Assembly (NCBI GenBank): GCA_030272155.1
Contig: CP126191.1
Coordinates: 8,640,501 to 8,704,500 of the forward strand
Direction: 5' to 3'
Length of the DNA: 64,000 bases
Source of the DNA: Tetradesmus obliquus
Lineage: Eukaryota > Chlorophyta > Chlorophyceae > Sphaeropleales > Scenedesmaceae
Positions 2,756 through 60,025 of this stretch are shown here, piece by piece (the first letter of the stretch is position 1; each line of letters starts with the position of its first letter). The position numbers and the translations under genes were made by a program. The notes beneath the pieces were generated by a model. It was given only the letters and a program-made list of their open reading frames with translations. It did no database searches and had not been told where the DNA came from.

Positions 2756-4609
2756 CAGGCTTGTTGAGGTGTAGTGAGGCGTCGATGATGTTAAATGACG
2801 AATTCTAGACAAAGCCAGGATCCCAAAGGACGCTGGTAATGCACAGCTGCGCACCTTCGAGCAATGAAGCCTCATTGATGCGCATGATGCCTGATGTGCA
2901 TCTGGCTGTGCTGCAGAAGAGCTGCTTTATTTCCAGAGCTGAGGTACATCCAGGCGGTGGTTTGGTGTGTGGTATCGTGCGGTGCTAGCTGTCCAGTGCG
3001 GCAACCGCAGCTGCTGCCGCCTAGGTGGGACCTGCTGGCGCTGCCTGCAGAGGGATGGCAAGTTCAACTGTGTACTTGTTGCACTGGAGCATATCCGGCC
3101 GTGCCTGGCATGGCGTGTTCATAAGTCAACGCTGATTGGATCTTTGGTTATTGTGGTGCTGCTGGCCCGTTACTAACGATGGTAGTACCATCGTGATGCT
3201 GAGGTTTTGCAGCTGCCACCACGTGTGCAGCCCACACATGCATGACAGTTTCTGGCAGTGCGCCGCAGCAGCATCAGACAGCAGGTGCACATGGAGCCCG
3301 GCTATCGTTGGCTTGCAGCTCAGCTGCATGGCAAGCTGCCATGCAACCCCCTGGGGAAGGGTGCTTAGCCAGCGTGTTCCACTGTAACCTGAACCTCTTG
3401 TGACAAGCATTGATCCCCGCTTGCCGTGAGTTGCAACAAACCCAGGTCTCCCAAAAGCACCATGGTAGCAGGCGGTTGACAATAGCTCACTGGAGATGAA
3501 GCACATGATGCTTACAGTACATTACAAGGATATGAAACAAAACTGATTACTTATCATGCATTCAACCTTAATTCAACACACACTTTGGCGGGCGCTGGTG
3601 TTCCCATCGTGTAACACACACATGTGTGGCCATTTACAAACATGGAGGCAGCCGCAGGAACTGAAACCGTTGCGCATGCGTGCCAAACATTGGTGCAGCT
3701 ATCACGATCTATTCATGCAGCAACAGCCCGCACACAGGCAGGCAGATTAAGCCGCTGCTCACTCACTGCATGTGTGTCACTGCATGCGATGCATCACCGT
3801 GACAAGACACATGACTACGACTGTAAGGTACCGTGATGACTGACACAACCAGCAGGGCCCTGCAGTTGGTCCTCCACTAGCAGTCGCCTGCAGACATACG
3901 TGCAAATACTCACTAGCCTGCTGTAAATAAACACGCACAGTGCCACAAGCACAGGCATTTTATGAAACAATGCTGGCAAAACTGCCGTGCACCGATGCTG
4001 GGTAGCATCGCCAACACACATCCACACGTTGTGCTTCTGATGGTACACCATGCCTGCATGGCTTCTGGCTCAGCATACATACTGCTACATCAGCAGAGTC
4101 CCCACTCAGCACAATGCATGCATGCACACTTGCAGGATGGCCACTGGCCTATACCTAATGCAGGCCTCGGTCCCTCGCCATGACCACACGGCTTGCTGCT
4201 CATCACCCGTGCACAGAAATCCCCAGCATACAGTGTACCAGCCAAGCAGCATGCATAATTGAGGGTTGCTGGCAAATCCTGCATGCTACCTCCATTGCAA
4301 CCCGGGTCTGCTGTCGTTGCCATATGGTGCGACAGACCGCTGTCCGACTTGGTGTAGGCGAGGTGCTGCGTGCGGCTGTGCTGCGGCCGTGGTTAATCTG
4401 CATCGGACATGTGTTGACGTTGCTATGTGATTGCCCATGCTGACTGCTGCCCCAGCTCAGCAAGCAGAGCGAGCCCAACTGGTAGTGTGCCTGATTGCTG
4501 CCACACCCTAGCAGAGAACAGCATGCAAGGCGATTGGCCTTGCCCGTGCTGGCAGTGTTGCTGCTACTGACCCATATACACCACGCGTTGGTACATCTAC
4601 TGCCGGCTA
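2756..4609. other. Convergent intergenic region, no gene seen
   Basis: This 1.85 kb lies between the stops of RFC (+) and the ubiquitin-fold gene (-). Open frames here are short and resemble no protein I know. A TGTAA motif near 3384, the usual chlorophyte polyadenylation signal, could end the RFC transcript. The rest is unremarkable. Confidence 0.5.
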
Positions 4610-18600: not shown

Positions 18601-20574
18601 AGAACGGCATCTTGGTGGACCCTACAGATGCAGATGCTGTTGCAGACGCGCTGCTGAAGCTGCTGACCAACCCCACCACCTGGGAGGAGTACGCCAGCAG
18701 CGGCGTCACCAACATCAACGCCTACAGCTGGACCAGCCACTGCATCAAGTGCCTCAACGCGGTGGAGGAGGAAAAGGTGAGATAACAACAACAGCGTGTG
18801 CAGCGACAGGTATCCTGAGCTGCAGACTGGATTGCTCCAGGGCGAGCATGCTACTGATGTAGATGACGGTGCTGCTTGACAGTGGAATTGACAGAGCTGT
18901 GGGTGGTGAGCAGCGCCGCTGCCGACAACATGCTGCTTGGTACATTCCTCTTTGCCGGCTCTGTGACAGCAACCGCCTTGTATTTATCAACAGCTTATGC
19001 TGCTTGCCTCCTCCCTTCTGTCCGAGCTCTGCTGACAAGCGCGCGCGCCGCTCTCCGCTGTTGCTGGCTGCTTCATGCTGCGCTGCTCACCACGCCTGCT
19101 CTCCGCGCAGATGGCTGGCACCAAGCGCACAAAGCACAGCCAGCTGCGCACCAACTTCAGCGCCTCACTGGACGACTTCACCTTTGTGGCAAGCAGCGGC
19201 AGCTTCTCCGCGCTGCGCCAGGCAGCAGGCAGTGCCTCATTCTCCGGCCCAGAGGGCAACAGCAGCAGCGAGGCGCGCGGCGCGCTGCTGAGCCCTCGCG
19301 CTTCAACCGCGCTGCTGGGGCAGAGCTTCACCACTGATGACATTGACACTTCCAGCAGCAGCGAGCCAGCACTGCCCAGCATCAACAGCGGTGTGGGGCT
19401 GGCGGCGCAGCAGCAGCAGCCTGGCTCGCCAAACGCGGCAGCAGGTGGTTTGTTGTCTCCGCGCGCAGGCAAGGGTCAGGAGCGCATGTTGGCGAGCAGC
19501 TCTATGCCGCTGACAGGCGCGTACGGAGGCGGCGGAGTGAGCAGCAGCGCTTTCAGCGCCGCTGCAGATGCGGCCGCAAAGCAGCTGGGCATGATCCGCG
19601 ACAAGTACGTCGTGTTTGTGCTGGACAGCAGCAATACAGTGTCCCGGCTGAGCAAGCTGCTGGCCCGCAAGGGGAAGGCCCTGATGGGCCTGGCAGCTGC
19701 AGGACACTCTGTGGGTTTAGGCGTCACAACCGCCTTCAGCTTGCAGGAAACGCAGGATCTGCTCAAATCAGCCGGCCTGGCCATGTCAGACCTGGACTTT
19801 GCGATCACGAATGCCGGCAGTGAGATCTGGTACTGCGGCGCCAGCACAGGCGACGCCAGCAGCGGCAGCGACGGCTGCAGCATCGATGAGCAGTACGACC
19901 ACATGCTGGATGCCAAGTGGGACCTCGTCAGTGTGAGGCGCGTGCTGGCTCAGTGCCTGGCTGAGAGGAACTTCCTGACAGGCGGCACAGCAGCAGCAGG
20001 TGGCGTGCGGCCACGCATCCGCGTGGATGCCAGCAGCGGCACGCACCACCTGAGCGTCACGCTGCGCCCCGGCAGCGACGGCGGCGCAGCAGCAGATGCC
20101 CCTGCAGGCCCTGCAACGCCAGCAGCAGCACCAGCACTAGCAGCAAAGGGCGGCCTTGCCATGACTGCAGCCGAGCAGGTGGCGCTGATCGGCCGCATCA
20201 AGCGGCGCTTCCGCTGCAGCGGCCTGCGCACGCAGGTGGTGAGTCAGCTGGACGGTGGCGACATCAAGCTGCACATCACGCCGCTGCGGGGCTCGCGCGC
20301 GCTGGCGCTGCGTCACCTCACCTACAAACACAAGGTAGACATGACGAGCCTGGTGATGGTGTGCTGCGCGCGCGACATGGCGCCAGGCGCGCAGGGCGGC
20401 ACGGGTGCGGCAGGCGTGGCGCGGTTTGCGTGCAGTGACATGGAAGATGTGGTGGCGGGGGTGCAGGGGGTGCTGGTGGTGCCGCCGCCGGCTGGTGCTG
20501 CTGGCGAGGGCTTCCCTGTTGATCTGGGGCTGTTTTCGCATGACGGGCGCGTGCAGCTGCTGCAGATCAAGTAG
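12627..20574 (+). CDS. SPS: Sucrose-phosphate synthase (GT4 plus SPP-like domain)
   Basis: SPS transfers glucose from UDP-glucose to fructose 6-phosphate in the cytosol, the committed step of sucrose synthesis. Thirteen exons (12627-12657, 12913-13088, 13660-13854, 14223-14507, 14741-14943, 15266-15404, 15683-15779, 16089-16230, 16647-16963, 17509-17767, 18075-18309, 18504-18776, 19111-20574) sum to 1271 residues with all phases consistent. The N-terminal VDSYLNALL and SWRVWGIKR match the plant SPS leader. The glycosyltransferase has the N-lobe [46 protein letters not shown] and the E-X7-E element in EPFGLTLIE. The last exon holds a phosphatase-like C-terminal domain in which the motif expected as DxDxT reads LDSSNT, so it is probably non-catalytic. 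Ser/Ala-rich linkers flank both domains. The separate phosphatase SPP is not in the window. Confidence 0.95.
15166..15258 (+). repeat. 18-bp tandem repeat at an SPS intron acceptor
   Basis: About five copies of an 18-base unit built on CTGCCGCGTTGCTGCTGT, differing at one or two positions, end just before the acceptor at 15264-15265. It looks like a diverged and expanded version of the CTG tracts seen at other acceptors. Confidence 0.85.
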
Positions 20575-36947: not shown

Positions 36948-38642
36948 TCACTTCTTCACCCTGCGCACTGCCGCCATCATCTCCTCAAGCTCTCCCACCA
37001 GCTCCCTGCTGCTGGGCCTGGCTGCTGACTCAGCGCGCCAGCAGCGCTGCATCAGCGCAGACCAGCCAGGCGCCGGCTCAGGCGGTGCCGCCGCATCGCC
37101 CCACTCGGCACTGCCAGGCACTGCCAGTGACAGGCCGCCGTGTGTTGTCAGCTGGTGCAGCAGCGCGTGGATATGCACGCCTGCAAAGGGCTCCTGCATG
37201 GCCCACAACTCCCACATGATGACGCCAAAGGAATACACGTCGGCCTGCAGGCAGCGCAGCATGCATGTGCACACATGGAACACAAAATGGTGAGCCCGCA
37301 GGCGCTTTCAATGTCAATGGAATTTCAAATGCAAAAGGATGAGCTCGCAGGCGCCGCAAGAAGCTTGCTGAGCCGATATGTGGGTGGGCACTGAGAGTAG
37401 CCTGTTTACCGCACTGTGCAGAACTGTACGCAATGCCACATGCATATATGCAGCCACGCCACCACTTCCAGTGCACGCCTGTTGTCACGGCATACGCCAG
37501 GTGCATGGCTGCTGATCAACACTCTGCTTATCAACAGTCTGTAACATGTCGGTGCCTTACCGCCTCAGTGACGTTGCCTGGGCTCTTGATTATTTCTGGT
37601 GCGATCCAAGGCAGCGTGCCCCGCATGGAATCTACCCCTGCAGCACAACACGACAAAAATGCAATATGCTTAGTAACAAGGCAGGCGCTAGCCAACCCAT
37701 TTGAGCACAGAATTTGCTGATTGTCCTTATACAGCGCTGTTGCTGCTGCAGAGCATCAAGCCACGTCAGTGCAAGGGGGAGCAGCAGCACGCTTGCACAC
37801 AACTGACAACTAGATGAGACAACACCTCACGCAGCACCACCACTCATGCACCTCAGCGGCTGCTGCACATACATTTGACTCCGACACAGCAGAGTTGGCT
37901 TGTGAGTGAAAGCTAAGCACAGGCCTGCAGGCCACCTCTCACACGCATCCACCGCAAGGCTTCTACTGAGCGCCATGTCCACAAGCAGAGACTGCACCTG
38001 TCACGTAGGTCTGGTAGCGCCGCTTGCTCAGGCCAAAGTCGGCCACCTTCACCGTAGGCGTGCGGTCCCTGCAATGAATGAAGCACGCAGCGCATCACAA
38101 GTCAGGCGCCGCGCACATATTGCCAGTGCGGAGTGCGGAACTTGCAGGTAAGCCTAGCGTTGTATTCGGCTCCTTACAACGTGCTGCAGCCTGCTCATTT
38201 GCAAGCTAGCTAGGCCGGCAGCAAGAAGAAGGGCAGCTGCAAACTGCATACCGTCAGCTGCTAGCGGCAGCTGTAACAAGCAGGTCGAGGCACTCAAACA
38301 TGCGGCAGCGCCAGGCGGCAGACATATTAAATATGCGGCAGCGCCAGGCGGCAGCCTTTTCAAACAAAGCGCCAGGTGGCAGCCTTTTCAAAAAGAAAAA
38401 CAAAAGCGCCAGGCGGCAGCCTCATGAAACATGCGGCAGCGCCAGGCGGCAGCCTTTTCAAAAAAAGCGCCAGGCGGCAGCCTTTTCAAAAAGAAAAACA
38501 AAAGCGCCAGGCGGCAGCCTTTTCAAACATGCGGCAGCGCCTGGCGGCAGCCAGCACGCAGCGCACCTGATGGTGAACAGCAGGTTTGCGCTTTTGAGGT
38601 CAAAGTGTACCACATGCTTGCTGTGGAGGTAGGACAGCCCCT

Positions 38643-38682
<40 letters not shown>

Positions 38683-39256
38683 AGCCGCGTTAGGCAGCCA
38701 CTTACATGCAAGATGCACACAAAGAGTGCCTTGCAAAGCCAGCAGCAGACAAGCGGCATTCCAAAAGCTTCATCACATCTGGGCGCCAGAGGCAGTCGCC
38801 GCTGCCTAGTGCGCCCTGAGTGCAGCTCGAGCACTGCACATGCACAAGATTTGAACACACAGCAGGCGTGTAGGCTGCTCGGCGCAGCTGCCGCACAGCA
38901 GAACTGCAGACTGCACACTCACCCGTGCTGTGTCCAGCAGCACCTTCACCTTGGCCATGCCGCTTTTCAGCCACTCAGCCCCGCTGCTAATGCAGCTCTG
39001 CAGTGAGCCTGCAGACAGGTACTCACACACCACTGCAGGCCCCTGCACAGCATCACCCGGCCGGATCCCGCCTGGCCCTGCTGCTGCTGAGTCAGCGGCG
39101 GCTGCGTCATCCCTGCCGCCGATTACTATCCCGGTGAGGCTGACGATGTCACTCGGCGGCAGCACCACGCCGATTGCAGACATGACATGCGGGTGGCGCA
39201 TGCTGGCCATGGTGGCTGCCTCCTGCAGCAGCTCAGCAGCCGGGCCTGCTGCACGC

Positions 39257-39287
<31 letters not shown>

Positions 39288-39762
39288 CCAGCAGCGAGGG
39301 CGAGAGGCACTTGACTGCCACATCGGTGCCGTGCCATTTGCAGAGGTACACCTCCCCAAAAGCACCTCCACCAACGTACCTGCGGCAGGCAGCAGCATCA
39401 TTGGCGGGGCCGTCACGCAGCGACGAGGAGCAGCAGGCCTGCCCAACGCAACTGCGCTGCTGTTGCAGCTGTGCGGGGCTGGACACACGCTGCAATGCAC
39501 GCTCAGTACCGCGCTGCGCCATTGAGCAAGCCGTCCTTTGCACTTGTGTCAAGTGACACAGCAACTGTTGTCTGGCTGCGTCCCGCTCACGCTGCACTTG
39601 TGGCAGCATCTGTGCGTGTTCATTTGCTGCTGCAGCTGCAGAGCTGGCATGGTGCCCTGGTTGAAGCCAACGCTTTGATGCTGCTTCGCGCTCTTACTCA
39701 CCGCACCACGCGCAGCTCATGAGGCATGATGAGCTCCACTTGGCCCTGCCAGCAGCAGCAGC

Positions 39763-39796
<34 letters not shown>

Positions 39797-40234
39797 GCAG
39801 CGATCACATCAGCAATTGTAGCAGCAACACCGAGCAGAGCAAGTGCGCTGAGACAGCCACAACTGCAGCAGCAACAGCACGTTGCCAGCAGCAGCACGTC
39901 ATACGCAGCATCAACAGGCTATGATGGGTGTGGCCAGCACATGGTGTTTCTTGTCCTCTTGGTCACGTTCGAAAGCAAAGGCACATGTGCTGCTGCTGTT
40001 GGCCATTCACGCGGCATGCTGCTCGCAGCAAATGTTCTGGCTGGTGTCGACACTGCATGTGCACATTTATGGGCACTGCCTGCCCTTCAAGCCATAGATG
40101 CAAACGGGGCAACATGATGCAACATGCATCAGGCTGTCACATGGCGCGCTGCGCAGCGTGATTGTAACGCGTACGCCAGGAATCGAAGGCGCACCTGGAG
40201 TTGCTTCACAAGCTGCTTCAGCTCAGTATCAACC

Positions 40235-40270
<36 letters not shown>

Positions 40271-40949
40271 TGGTCTCTGCTGCTGCTCTGCACCTCCCCG
40301 ACTACCTGCTTGCCTGCTGCTCTCTCTGCTGCCATGGCAGCAAGCACCGCCGCCACCTCTGGGTCGGCCTGCAGCGCATCTGTCATCTCAAAGCACGTCG
40401 CAAACTGCTCCGAGGAGTCCTCACCAAAGCCTGCAGCGCTGTCACCCTCAGGAGCTGCGGCCTGTACACTGTGCACGTTGAGCCACGGCTGCAGCACCTG
40501 CTGCTGCTGCTGCTGCTGCTGCTGATGCTTTGCAAGCAAGGAGCTGCACATCGGCACCAGCACATGTGCATCTACAGAGCCGCATGAAGCAGCCAAGTCA
40601 TCCTTATTCAAGGTGCTCAGCGGCGCTGCTGCTGCCATGCCTGATGCTGTGCACGCGCCAGCAGCCGCAGCGCCGGCAGCAGCAGCAGCAGCAATGACAG
40701 CAAAACCAGAGCCGGAGCCGCTGAGCGAGCCGGGCGTTGCCGGCTGCAGGTTCCGGTGTCCGCCGCTGCTGCTTGCGCCGCTGCTGTGGGCGCTGCCGGC
40801 TGCAGCATCCACATACAGCTGCAGCCGCGCAGTCCCATTGCTGCTGGATGCTATGAACTCTTCCCATTCCTCCCACATGTTGTCTAGGTCTTCGCTGCAT
40901 GCCAGGTCGATCAGCGAGCCTGCCATGCCTGGCAGCGCATACTTGACCT

Positions 40950-40991
<42 letters not shown>

Positions 40992-42068
40992 AGCAAGTGA
41001 AGCTTGGGCACCAACTTGTTCTGCCAGTCTGTGCACGCTGAGTGACTGGCAGTCGCACAGAATGCATGCAGCCAGCGCCCGTGTGTGCTGCCAGCGCAGC
41101 CGGCGCCACGGCATTGTGTTGTGGGCCAGCTTTCAATGCGCTGCATGCTGGCACATTGAACGAGCACCACTACATGCTGTGAGGGCACTTGGTGTCAACA
41201 GACTGGTACAGATGCAGCCCTCTCTTGCCAGCCATGCATACAGCCATGATTGAAACCATACATGCAGCATGCAAGCCATAGATTACCACATCAGCTGCTT
41301 TCCAGCTGAGCTCAACCTCAACACAAGCTTACGCAGCAACATGATCCTACAGGGCTCACCTGAACCTGGCCAAACCCTGAGCCAGCCGCGTCTGCCCTGC
41401 TGCTCAACAGACCTAGCAGCTCCTCAAAAGCAGCAGCGCGCGGCAACACCACCACCTTCTGCGCCCCACCCGCATACTCCCACGCCCCAGAAGCACCGGC
41501 GCGCCTGAACGAGCCGCCAACTGTTACTACTGCGCGGACCTTGCTGTTGGCGGCCGCCGAGCCACTGTCAGAAGGCATGCGCCGGGCTAAGATGTGCATG
41601 GCAGGATCAGCGCCGAGAGACGACCGATGCAGCTGTTGCAAGGTGCTATGAACAAGCTCCTGCTGTTGGTGCTGCGAGTGCGTGCTGCAGCTGCTGATGC
41701 TGTTGCTGCGTTGCTGCTGCTGCAGTGTCCAGGCTTCGCTGCTGCGGCGGCTGAGGTTGCTGCTACTGCTGCTGCCAGAATTTAGCAGATGCTGCTGGAT
41801 TGGCATCTGCATGTCGTGGTGCGGCTGCAGTTGATGGGTGTGCTGTGGACACTGCTGCTGCTGCTGCAGTGGCGCAGCAAAACTGCTGCTGAGCCTGCCT
41901 CCCGCAGCTGCTGCTGCATGTTGATAGGCGCCCTGCACTCCTCTGGCAGGGCTGTAGGAGGGCACTGCTGCGAGCCCAGCAGCTGCTGCAGCATGCTGCT
42001 GCTGCCCCTTGTCATACGCAAGATGCTCTGTGTAGATCAAAGACATGCGGCGGCTTCGGCGGCGGCTG

Positions 42069-42099
<31 letters not shown>

Positions 42100-43233
42100 C
42101 TGATGTGTCGTCTGCAGCAGCATCTGAGTCTGCCGCCAGCCAGCTGCTGCTGCAAAAGCCATCCTGAGTCAATCGAACTGGCACAGCAGAGGACAGCTCA
42201 GGTATCCAGAAGTCACATTCCTGCAAGCAGCAGTTGAAGCGCTTCAATGTTGTCCGGATGACATGCCCTTGCAGGACGGGTGTGGCTGCATGGGAGTGTC
42301 AGCAGGGGCTAGCCGAACCAAGCCTGACCAATGAATGGCATGCTGTTTTTATGCGCAGCAAGCAGTCCGCCTGCACAGCAGCAGGCGATGCAGATAAAAC
42401 GGCAACAACTCCGCGCATAGCAGGCGCACCTGTGCTACTTCTTGCAGGATTCCCACCGCAGTGGTGAAGTCAACATCCTTTTCTTGCTGCACAAGCTCCA
42501 GCACGCAGCAGGGCAGCTGCTGCTGCTGCTGTTGCGCGTCATGCACAGCCAGCACCAAGCTGCTGTGCACGTTTGCTAGCCGAGCTGCCGCTTGCCGGTC
42601 AAAGTAACCAGCAGCGTCATCTGTCTTGCTGCCGCTGCTGCTGCAGGAGCCAGGTTGCAGGTTGGCATACACGCGGGTGATGGGACAAGCGGCATTCAAG
42701 CCAGGCCCATCGCACAGCGGCTGGTATTTGCCTGCGGTGGTGCTCGTTGCACAGCGATGCAGTGAGTGATGTAGCGGGGAGTGATGCTAGATGCAGCGTC
42801 AGCAGAAGCAGTAGGGGACAGAAGGGCGACAACAGCTGGCTCTGCTGTGGCGGGTGGAAGCCCACTGCACCCACCAGAGTAGTATCTGTACAGAGTCAGC
42901 GCGTCAGCACTGCCAAGGATGGCGAACGGGAAGCCCTGTGTCGTCAGCCGGACACCCCCAGGAGTGTCTTGAGGCACCCATACCTGCAGAAATGGGTGCA
43001 CAGACTGTCAGCTGGACAACGCTGCAGCCGGCCCTGCCCAGTATGACAGGTACGGATGTAGGTTTTACAGTGCGCCAAGTGCGTGCTGGACGCCGGTGCC
43101 CTGGTTTGTTGCGGGTTCGCACAAGGTCGGAAACACGCACCTGGCAAAGCGCCCCAGTTTCTCCTGCCTGGGATGTGTGAGATTGAAACTTATACGCAAA
43201 GCTGTTACAGAAGCGATCAAGGCGCTCGCGCAT
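36948..43233 (-). CDS. Raf-like protein kinase with NLP-type GAF-like region and PB1 domain
   Basis: Eleven exons (43141-43233, 42875-42983, 42430-42731, 41360-42220, 40195-40947, 39702-39745, 38923-39379, 38567-38640, 37998-38068, 37561-37637, 36948-37244) sum exactly to 1045 residues. Residues 1-170 resemble the GAF-like region of NIN-like proteins: QVWVPQDTPGGVRLTTQGFPF, then CCVLELVQQEKDVDF. A PB1 domain spans about 395-501 (KVRAVVTVGGSF, WEYAGGAQKVVVLP, ALPGMAGSLIDLACSEDL). The kinase spans about 721-1035: GGGAFGEVY, VAVK, HFDLKSANLL, DFGLSKR, GTLPWIAPEII, DVYSFGVIMWEL and RPSS. All catalytic residues are present, so it should be an active Ser/Thr/Tyr kinase of the TKL class, likely in MAPKKK-type signalling. 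Exons 4-5 add Gln, Ala and Ser tracts. I see no RWP-RK motif. The GAF-like assignment is less sure than PB1 or kinase. Confidence 0.85.
38299..38552. repeat. Minisatellite in kinase intron
   Basis: About ten copies of GCGCCAGGCGGCAGCC joined by TTTTCAAA, AAGAAAAACAAA or AACATGCGGCA linkers, in the intron between the HFDLK exon and the DFG exon. Open frames across it are repeat artefacts. Confidence 0.9.
38641..38679 (-). repeat. (CTG)n acceptor tract before the HFDLK exon
   Basis: On the minus strand about 12 CTG units run straight into CAG and the exon that starts at 38640. A similar run, 40948-40990, forms the acceptor of the PB1 exon at 40947. Confidence 0.93.
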
Positions 43234-58816: not shown

Positions 58817-60025
58817 GGCAGGACACACAGGATCATGCCACTGCACTGTCACAAAGGTGACCAAGCACCACACCAACTGCCAATGTATCGTCAGTAGCAG
58901 TGCCCGCGCTGCTTCCTCAGCCCCACCTTGGTGCCAAAATACTCTCCCCTGAACACCCTGCCCATGGAGCCAGCCGCAATCTGGTTCTTGATCCGCAGGC
59001 CCTCCACCTTGCTGCACACCGCGCGCGCCACACTACTGCAGCTGCCCAGCCTGTGGCTCGCGCCGCTGCTGCTGGTGCTGCTCGCCAGCATGAGGTCATG
59101 GCTGTGCGCGCCGCTACTGCTGGTGGTGGTTGTGCTGGCCGGCGCGACGAGCGTCAGCAGCACGCAGCCAGCGCCGCTGCCGGCCCACGCGCTGTCTGCG
59201 GCCCTGGCAAACTGCGGGAATGCGCACGGCACGAGCGACACGCCGCGCTGCCCGCCAGGCGACATGTGCATTGCCTGGCTGCTGCTGGCGCCACTGCTGC
59301 TGCAGGGCGACGCCTGCACCTGGCTGCTGCTGCTGGGCTGCACTGTCACCGTAACGAAATAGAGTGACGGTGCAACCGGTTCCGCTGTGACGGGTGACTC
59401 ATCGCTGCTGCGAGCTGCCAGTGCAGAGGCGGCGGCTGGCAGCTCTGCAGCATCAGGCAGGAAGCTGGGCAGGCAGATGCTGACTGCGCCATCCACCTCA
59501 CCATGCTCGGCAGACCTGTGCAGCAGCAGCAGCAGCAACGGACATAGCACCAGCGCCTACTCTGTGACGTCATGACTGCCCGCATTGGCAGGGGTCATTG
59601 GTTGGGAGTCACGCAGACATGAATGGGACTGGCGGGCAACTGCGTGTGCACAGCGTGTGTGAGCCCAAGAGCTGGCCTTGGCCTGCCCCGCTGGCACGCA
59701 AGTCAGCAGAGGCTGCTACCACGCGGTCCAGACAGATCTGAGAGAGCACGCTTGCATCCGGCAAGCACACCAAACGCACCTGAAGCTCAGTGATACAGGC
59801 TGCCCTCCCAAGCCCGGAAGCTGCAGCCCAGCCAGAGTAAAGCACTGACGCTCGGCCGCCAGCTGCTGCAACTGCTCAACACATGGTCGCTGAGGTTGCT
59901 GCTGCTGATGCTGCTGCTGCTGCTGAACGCCAAACGGTGTGCTGCTGTTCATATCGCACAGCTGCTCTGCAAGCAGCGGCCACAGCAGCTGCCCAACAAT
60001 GTCATGATTACCGCCGCGCCTGGCT

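Follow-up and report, generated by a model that had tools for sequence, protein, structure and literature searches.

A predicted PB1-type Raf-like kinase with an N-terminal GAF domain of the NLP/NIT2 type in Tetradesmus obliquus

The PB1-Raf kinases of plants, also called 'group B4 Raf', combine a PB1 domain with a C-terminal kinase domain of the TKL/Raf type. In the available sections of the account by Mutte & Weijers (2020, PMC7051960), they are described as PB1 plus kinase, with an architecture as in the animal PB1 kinases; a GAF domain is not mentioned there, and the main text holds no match for GAF. In the literature consulted, the first GAF-like domain of the NIN-like proteins (NLPs) and NIT2, hereafter GAF-A, has been studied inside transcription factors, and its role there is hard to separate from DNA binding. 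Here we describe a gene on the minus strand (positions 36948-43233) of a 64,000-nucleotide stretch of Tetradesmus obliquus DNA (the window; C1:8640501-8704500), whose predicted product appears to join GAF-A to a kinase of the PB1-Raf type. Genome searches covered the 104.66 Mb and 17 contigs of this alga, of which C1, C4, C12, C13 and C14 are contig labels; the genome encodes a NIT2/NLP-like RWP-RK protein, as would suit a green alga.

The predicted protein has in common with the plant PB1-Raf kinases a kinase-type PB1 domain followed by a C-terminal TKL/Raf kinase, to which it adds GAF-A. With NLPs and NIT2 it shares the first GAF-like domain, one intron position (that of an RWP-RK gene of the same genome) and an equivalent of Ser205 of AtNLP7, but GAF_NLP and RWP-RK were not detected in it, its PB1 is of another type, and a kinase stands in place of the DNA-binding domain. 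We hold with moderate confidence that the locus is one gene, encoding a PB1-type Raf-like TKL kinase in which an N-terminal GAF-A would serve as a regulatory input. Such a protein would be a variant of the PB1-Raf kinases, perhaps working like the N-terminus of NLPs. The combination of NLP GAF-A, PB1 and kinase was not found in the literature among the matches listed, which were mostly open-access, algal proteomes being outside that search; orthologues may already have been annotated without comment.

Gene structure and domain order

As originally predicted, the gene consists of eleven phase-matched exons. In scripted splicing, the ten introns (143-498 nt) are all of the GT-AG type with compatible phases, and the reading frame runs from an ATG at 43233 to a TGA ending at 36948 through 1045 codons with no internal stop, although translation may actually begin in an exon further upstream that escaped detection. 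The domain order, in part from Pfam, is an NLP-like region (residues 1-168), a Q/S-rich linker, PB1 (394-502) and the TKL/Raf kinase (707-1045). Residues 169-392 include 36 Q, 36 S and 30 A among 224, and low-complexity tracts are present in exons 4, 5 and 7. Such tracts could point to a full-length but decaying copy of a formerly regulated kinase, the GAF domain of which would be free of constraint. However, the 1045 stop-free codons, the intact kinase motifs that were sought and the GAF residues kept across divergent paralogues make decay very improbable.

Another way to read the exons is as a false join of two neighbouring genes, one for a PB1 kinase and one for an N-terminal piece of an NLP, and intron 3 indeed parts GAF exons 1-3 from exon 4. 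Against this, exon 4 (41360-42220, minus strand) holds, without interruption, the GAF tail, the linker and the first half of PB1. The tail motif, ECDFWIPEL (42194-42220), stands at the start of the exon, and similar tails, located by alignment to the window tail, occur in three paralogous GAF-kinases. It is followed by a linker motif, R-x-S-x-I-x-T-E/D-x-L/F after basic residues (RRMSLIYTEHL at 42020-42070 in the window), that is present in all four GAF-kinases. The original prediction had considered splits near 42250 or 40950; these points fall within introns 3 and 4 or next to them, and intron 4 is located inside PB1. Moreover, a paralogue on contig C4 (C4a; C4:4958137-4965081) shows the same order of GAF, PB1 and kinase as the window gene, and its 621-aa open frame contains a GAF tail (FWLPCL), an RRQSVIYTEYL motif and the first half of PB1, which matches the layout of window exon 4 (FWIPEL, RRMSLIYTEHL, PB1). 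In two other paralogues, C1b (C1:8784k) and C12a (C12:1000k), the GAF tail, an RQSFIVTDY motif and the kinase glycine loop stand together in one open frame, ~750 codons long in C1b and ~660 in C12a. Because C4a repeats the order of the three domains, and because in both genes a single open frame links the GAF tail to PB1, the window exons very probably form one gene, and we regard a false join as highly unlikely.

The N-terminal domain and its relation to NLPs

Residues 1-168 are encoded by exons 1-3 (43233-43141, 42983-42875 and 42731-42430; 42430-43233 overall) and are, judged from sequence comparison, homologous to GAF-A of NLPs. In single BLASTP comparisons, they are 35% identical to the GAF of an RWP-RK protein of the same genome (E 7e-22) and 27% identical to AtNLP7 (E 1e-7), the checked sequence of which matches Pfam GAF_NLP at 1.8e-80. 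A hidden Markov model built from the four kinase-linked GAFs found the RWP-RK protein at 3.3e-29 and, in AtNLP7, residues 159-292 at 1.4e-10 (best domain; 603 sequences), and the best of the 600 shuffled decoys among these sequences had an E of 0.083. Together with splicing, C4a and BLASTP, this bears out the original claim that an NLP GAF-like part, PB1 and a TKL kinase are present in one protein.

When the genome was searched by tblastn with residues 1-168, matches were obtained at C1:8784k (2e-17), C12:1000k (4e-12), C4:4958k (0.007-0.5 per exon) and the RWP-RK gene at C4:366k (0.33). Matches at the latter gene and at C4a are weak, and those links therefore depend on the reconstructed domain. 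Splice-aware alignment rebuilt a GAF in C4a (score 297), C12a (342) and C1b (323), and also in front of the RWP-RK gene (C4n; C4:366-371k, score 203), against maxima of 102 over 32 reversed pieces and 119 over 20 shuffled-query runs, with a small length mismatch between the queries (190 aa) and the nulls (168 aa). At three loci, C1:20k (C1a), C13 and C14, GAF scores of 101-124 were near the nulls, and the C14 candidate (124) was dropped for being close to the shuffled-query maximum. Sequence searches of the PDB with the GAF gave best E values of 0.6 and 0.036 (phycocyanins and a designed repeat protein), which were judged to be chance matches.

The exon structure adds to this picture. Window intron 1 (GALCQ|VW, phase 0) coincides with an intron of the RWP-RK gene (GALVQ|VW), and the next intron of that gene (LSAQ|GLPF) is common to the other three GAF-kinases. 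Over the five rows of the same genome, 28 of the 168 window GAF residues are invariant. The window domain corresponds to AtNLP7 residues 159-292, that is, to the first GAF, and Pfam GAF_NLP (PF22922) spans residues 316-500, the second GAF, including W395, H404, L406 and Y436. These four residues are taken here to form the nitrate pocket of NLP7. Neither the second GAF nor an RWP-RK domain was found by Pfam in the spliced protein; GAF_NLP was likewise not found in the genome, in a search that gave no match in any of 14 controls, and the seven RWP-RK matches of the genome are all outside the window. The original prediction had proposed nitrogen or metabolite sensing. For nitrate, this is not supported, as the pocket residues lie in the unmatched second GAF and nitrate binding is reported to be absent from the NIT2 GAF (PMC4620153).

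PB1, kinase and paralogues

The PB1 domain (residues 394-502; 40807-41545, minus strand) is split by intron 4 and was delimited with Pfam and with PB1-kinase paralogues of the same genome. Pfam PB1 matches residues 417-502 with 24.1 bits, barely above the cut-off of 23.6. A model made from three other PB1 kinases of the genome gave 109 bits for the window PB1 and 0.9 for the NLP7 PB1 (best shuffle 12.5), a one-sided comparison in that the reference PB1s are paralogues from the same genome. The domain contains an OPCA-like acidic stretch, SEDLDNMWEEWEEF (40896-40855), preceded by ALP. In the kinase-family PB1s covered by the available sections of Mutte & Weijers (2020, PMC7051960), the acidic motif is preceded by QLP. 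The window PB1 is also central and N-terminal to the kinase, unlike the C-terminal PB1 of NLPs, and it is here classified as a kinase-type rather than an NLP-type domain. A PB1 family search of the genome gave a single match, C4:113458; the window was not matched, probably because the intron splits its PB1.

The kinase domain (residues 707-1045; 36951-39745, minus strand) matches Pfam PK_Tyr_Ser-Thr with 138 bits in the spliced protein and is predicted to be a complete TKL/Raf-like kinase. All the catalytic motifs that were sought are intact, namely the glycine loop (39372-39349), VAVK (39321-39310), HFDLKSAN (38607-38584), DFG (near 38040) and APE (near 37600). Its closest solved relative is the kinase domain of CTR1, a Raf-like kinase of plants (3ppz, 4.9e-35), for which we know of no NLP GAF-A or PB1. 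An array of GCGCCAGGCGGCAGCC-like units was spotted by eye in intron 8, between kinase exons 8 and 9 (window 38300-38560).

By these comparisons, the genome contains at least four predicted GAF-kinase genes: two of the GAF-PB1-Raf type (the window gene and C4a) and two GAF-TKL genes without detected PB1 (C1b and C12a). The latter have in common with the window protein GAF-A, the GAF tail, the RQSFIVTDY-type motif and a C-terminal TKL kinase, and differ from it in kinase subtype (HGDLKAAN; Pfam Pkinase, 85 bits, for the C1b core) and in PB1, which was not detected in C1b and C12a, where the queries scored 108 and 100, similar to the 95 at the RWP-RK locus that served as the sole yardstick.

GAF was also sought upstream of two further PB1 kinases with five queries each. 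For C1a (16 kb), scores were 100-112 against reversed nulls of 88-112, with four of the five above the null; for C13 (20 kb), they were 109-121 against 92-99, with all five above it. Since most queries point to different best places and score close to the shuffled-query maximum of 119, the GAF of these two genes is best described as undetected rather than absent. In a quartet of PB1 plus kinase sequences (429 columns; unrooted, and with models guided by the window protein), the window gene groups with C1a, and C4a with C13 (SH-aLRT/bootstrap 98.6/99; informative sites 24 versus 9 and 8). The GAF-bearing window and C4a genes are not sisters in this quartet, and the fusion is therefore probably older than at least one duplication and was then lost in C1a. 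It may be, alternatively, that GAF was gained a second time, or that it was missed in C1a or C13. An eight-row kinase tree was set aside for its long outgroup branches, its window-guided models and the row of the window gene, which fell in an open fork. Viral and prokaryote contigs yielded 40 and 24 pattern matches, none of which was confirmed as a relative.

These results bear on the origin of the gene. According to the original prediction, it arose from an NLP in which RWP-RK was swapped for a kinase, senses nitrogen or a metabolite, and possibly represents an ancestral link between NLPs and PB1-Raf kinases. The homology of GAF-A, the intron position shared with the RWP-RK gene and the presence of GAF and PB1 in a single protein are in line with such an origin. 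However, the PB1 is of the kinase type, and hence does not join the two families; the second GAF was found neither in the protein nor in the genome search with its unmatched controls; the same GAF-A is present on another type of TKL kinase, where PB1 was not detected; and the PB1-kinase quartet mixes GAF-bearing and GAF-less members. We consequently consider an NLP origin improbable; neither an exchanged DNA-binding domain nor an ancestral link is supported. The PB1 type argues instead for a PB1-Raf kinase carrying GAF-A, and against a member of the NLP family or an NLP with an exchanged DNA-binding domain. In the simpler history, a PB1-Raf kinase would have gained GAF-A, or would have had it since ancient times.

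Some additional features were observed. Two of the four GAF-kinase genes, of different kinase types, are separated by ~100 kb on contig C1 (C1:8677-8683k and C1:8783-8790k). On C12, the gene for the GAF-TKL kinase (C12:993-1002.3k) has an RWP-RK match at a distance of ~9 kb (C12:983674), and another such match lies at C12:931011. Partial extra exon copies were seen beside the real ones, comprising GAF exon pieces in C12 (L037/L038), PB1 and glycine-loop exons in C13 (L045) and a PSVIAELRKCLK piece in the RWP-RK gene (L042 near 4050-4250); exon duplication may thus be frequent in this genome. Elsewhere in the window, a 512-aa open frame (19036-20574, plus strand) matches Pfam S6PP with 28.5 bits (cut-off 20.3) and resembles a sucrose-phosphatase or the C-terminal part of a sucrose-phosphate synthase. 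An open frame at 58891-59556 (minus strand) ends in a kinase-like glycine loop (IAAGSMGRVFRGEYFG) and may represent an exon of a further TKL kinase; no Pfam match was found in that piece.

Possible regulation through GAF-A

A candidate regulatory site lies in the YRYYS sequence of residues 63-67 (42876-42890, minus strand), in which S67 aligns with AtNLP7 Ser205, a site of calcium-dependent protein kinases (CPKs), and the arginine at -3 is kept. The alignment has Ser in this column and Arg or Lys at -3 in all six sequences. Phosphorylation of NLP7 Ser205 by CPK10/30/32 is reported to lead to nuclear retention (PMC10572113, PMC13210779), and deletion of the NLP7 GAF to stop export and function (PMC9310391). 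Phosphorylation of the GAF module governs the nuclear retention of a transcription factor in NLP7, and here it would gate a kinase. In the regulation that we propose, GAF-A would be the regulatory input of the kinase: a basophilic kinase, calcium-dependent or otherwise, would modify the Ser205-equivalent, and GAF-A would also, or instead, bind a small molecule other than nitrate or dimerise. PB1 would link the protein to partners or an assembly, and the Raf-like domain would phosphorylate downstream targets. By analogy with NLP7, gating of the Raf-like kinase by GAF-A through phosphorylation or a non-nitrate ligand is the most likely mode, because the Ser205 column is kept throughout, the NIT2 GAF is reported without nitrate binding and the NLP7 GAF is needed for export and function.

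It should be noted that several observations weigh against this interpretation. Pfam assigned no family to residues 1-201 even at E<=1, nor to any of the five GAF regions, the one of the RWP-RK protein included, and it also found no PB1 in the first-half PB1 piece of C1a. The paralogue models were aligned to the window protein, and their likeness (203-342 with a 190-residue query; nulls 102 and 119) is therefore somewhat flattered. In two of the four modelled PB1 kinases (C1a and C13) GAF was not detected, and GAF would therefore be dispensable for that kinase type. Finally, the five own-genome rows have 28 invariant columns, of which the Ser with Arg or Lys at -3 is one, and it may be structural rather than a phosphosite.

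GAF-A might also have no role as a switch or in ligand binding; it would then bring the kinase into a complex by dimerising or by docking partners, and regulation would fall to PB1. Such a role would fit the difference between GAF-A and the NLP7 part assumed to hold the nitrate pocket, the related kinases without detected GAF and the reported lack of nitrate binding by the NIT2 GAF (PMC4620153). The Ser205-equivalent with its basic residue in six of six sequences and the 28 of 168 invariant residues speak for some constrained function, the kind of which they do not specify, and we consider docking possible but rather doubtful. A bolder extension of regulation by GAF-A is that the NLP GAF-A is a portable phospho-switch, shuffled among transcription factors and kinases of at least two types, in which a calcium/CPK step would act via the Ser205-equivalent on Raf-like and other TKL kinases, so that nitrogen signalling would have, beside NIT2/NLP, a parallel branch through kinases; we regard this as unlikely.

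If GAF-A does control the kinase, enzyme activity would provide a measure of what GAF-A senses or of how the conserved serine works, and the four natural GAF-kinase variants would be available for comparison. The nitrate-response factors and the MAP3K-like kinases of this lineage would then have an input module in common. The recurrence of the fusion within the genome hints that the control exerted by GAF-A is not confined to a gene switch and can extend to a kinase.

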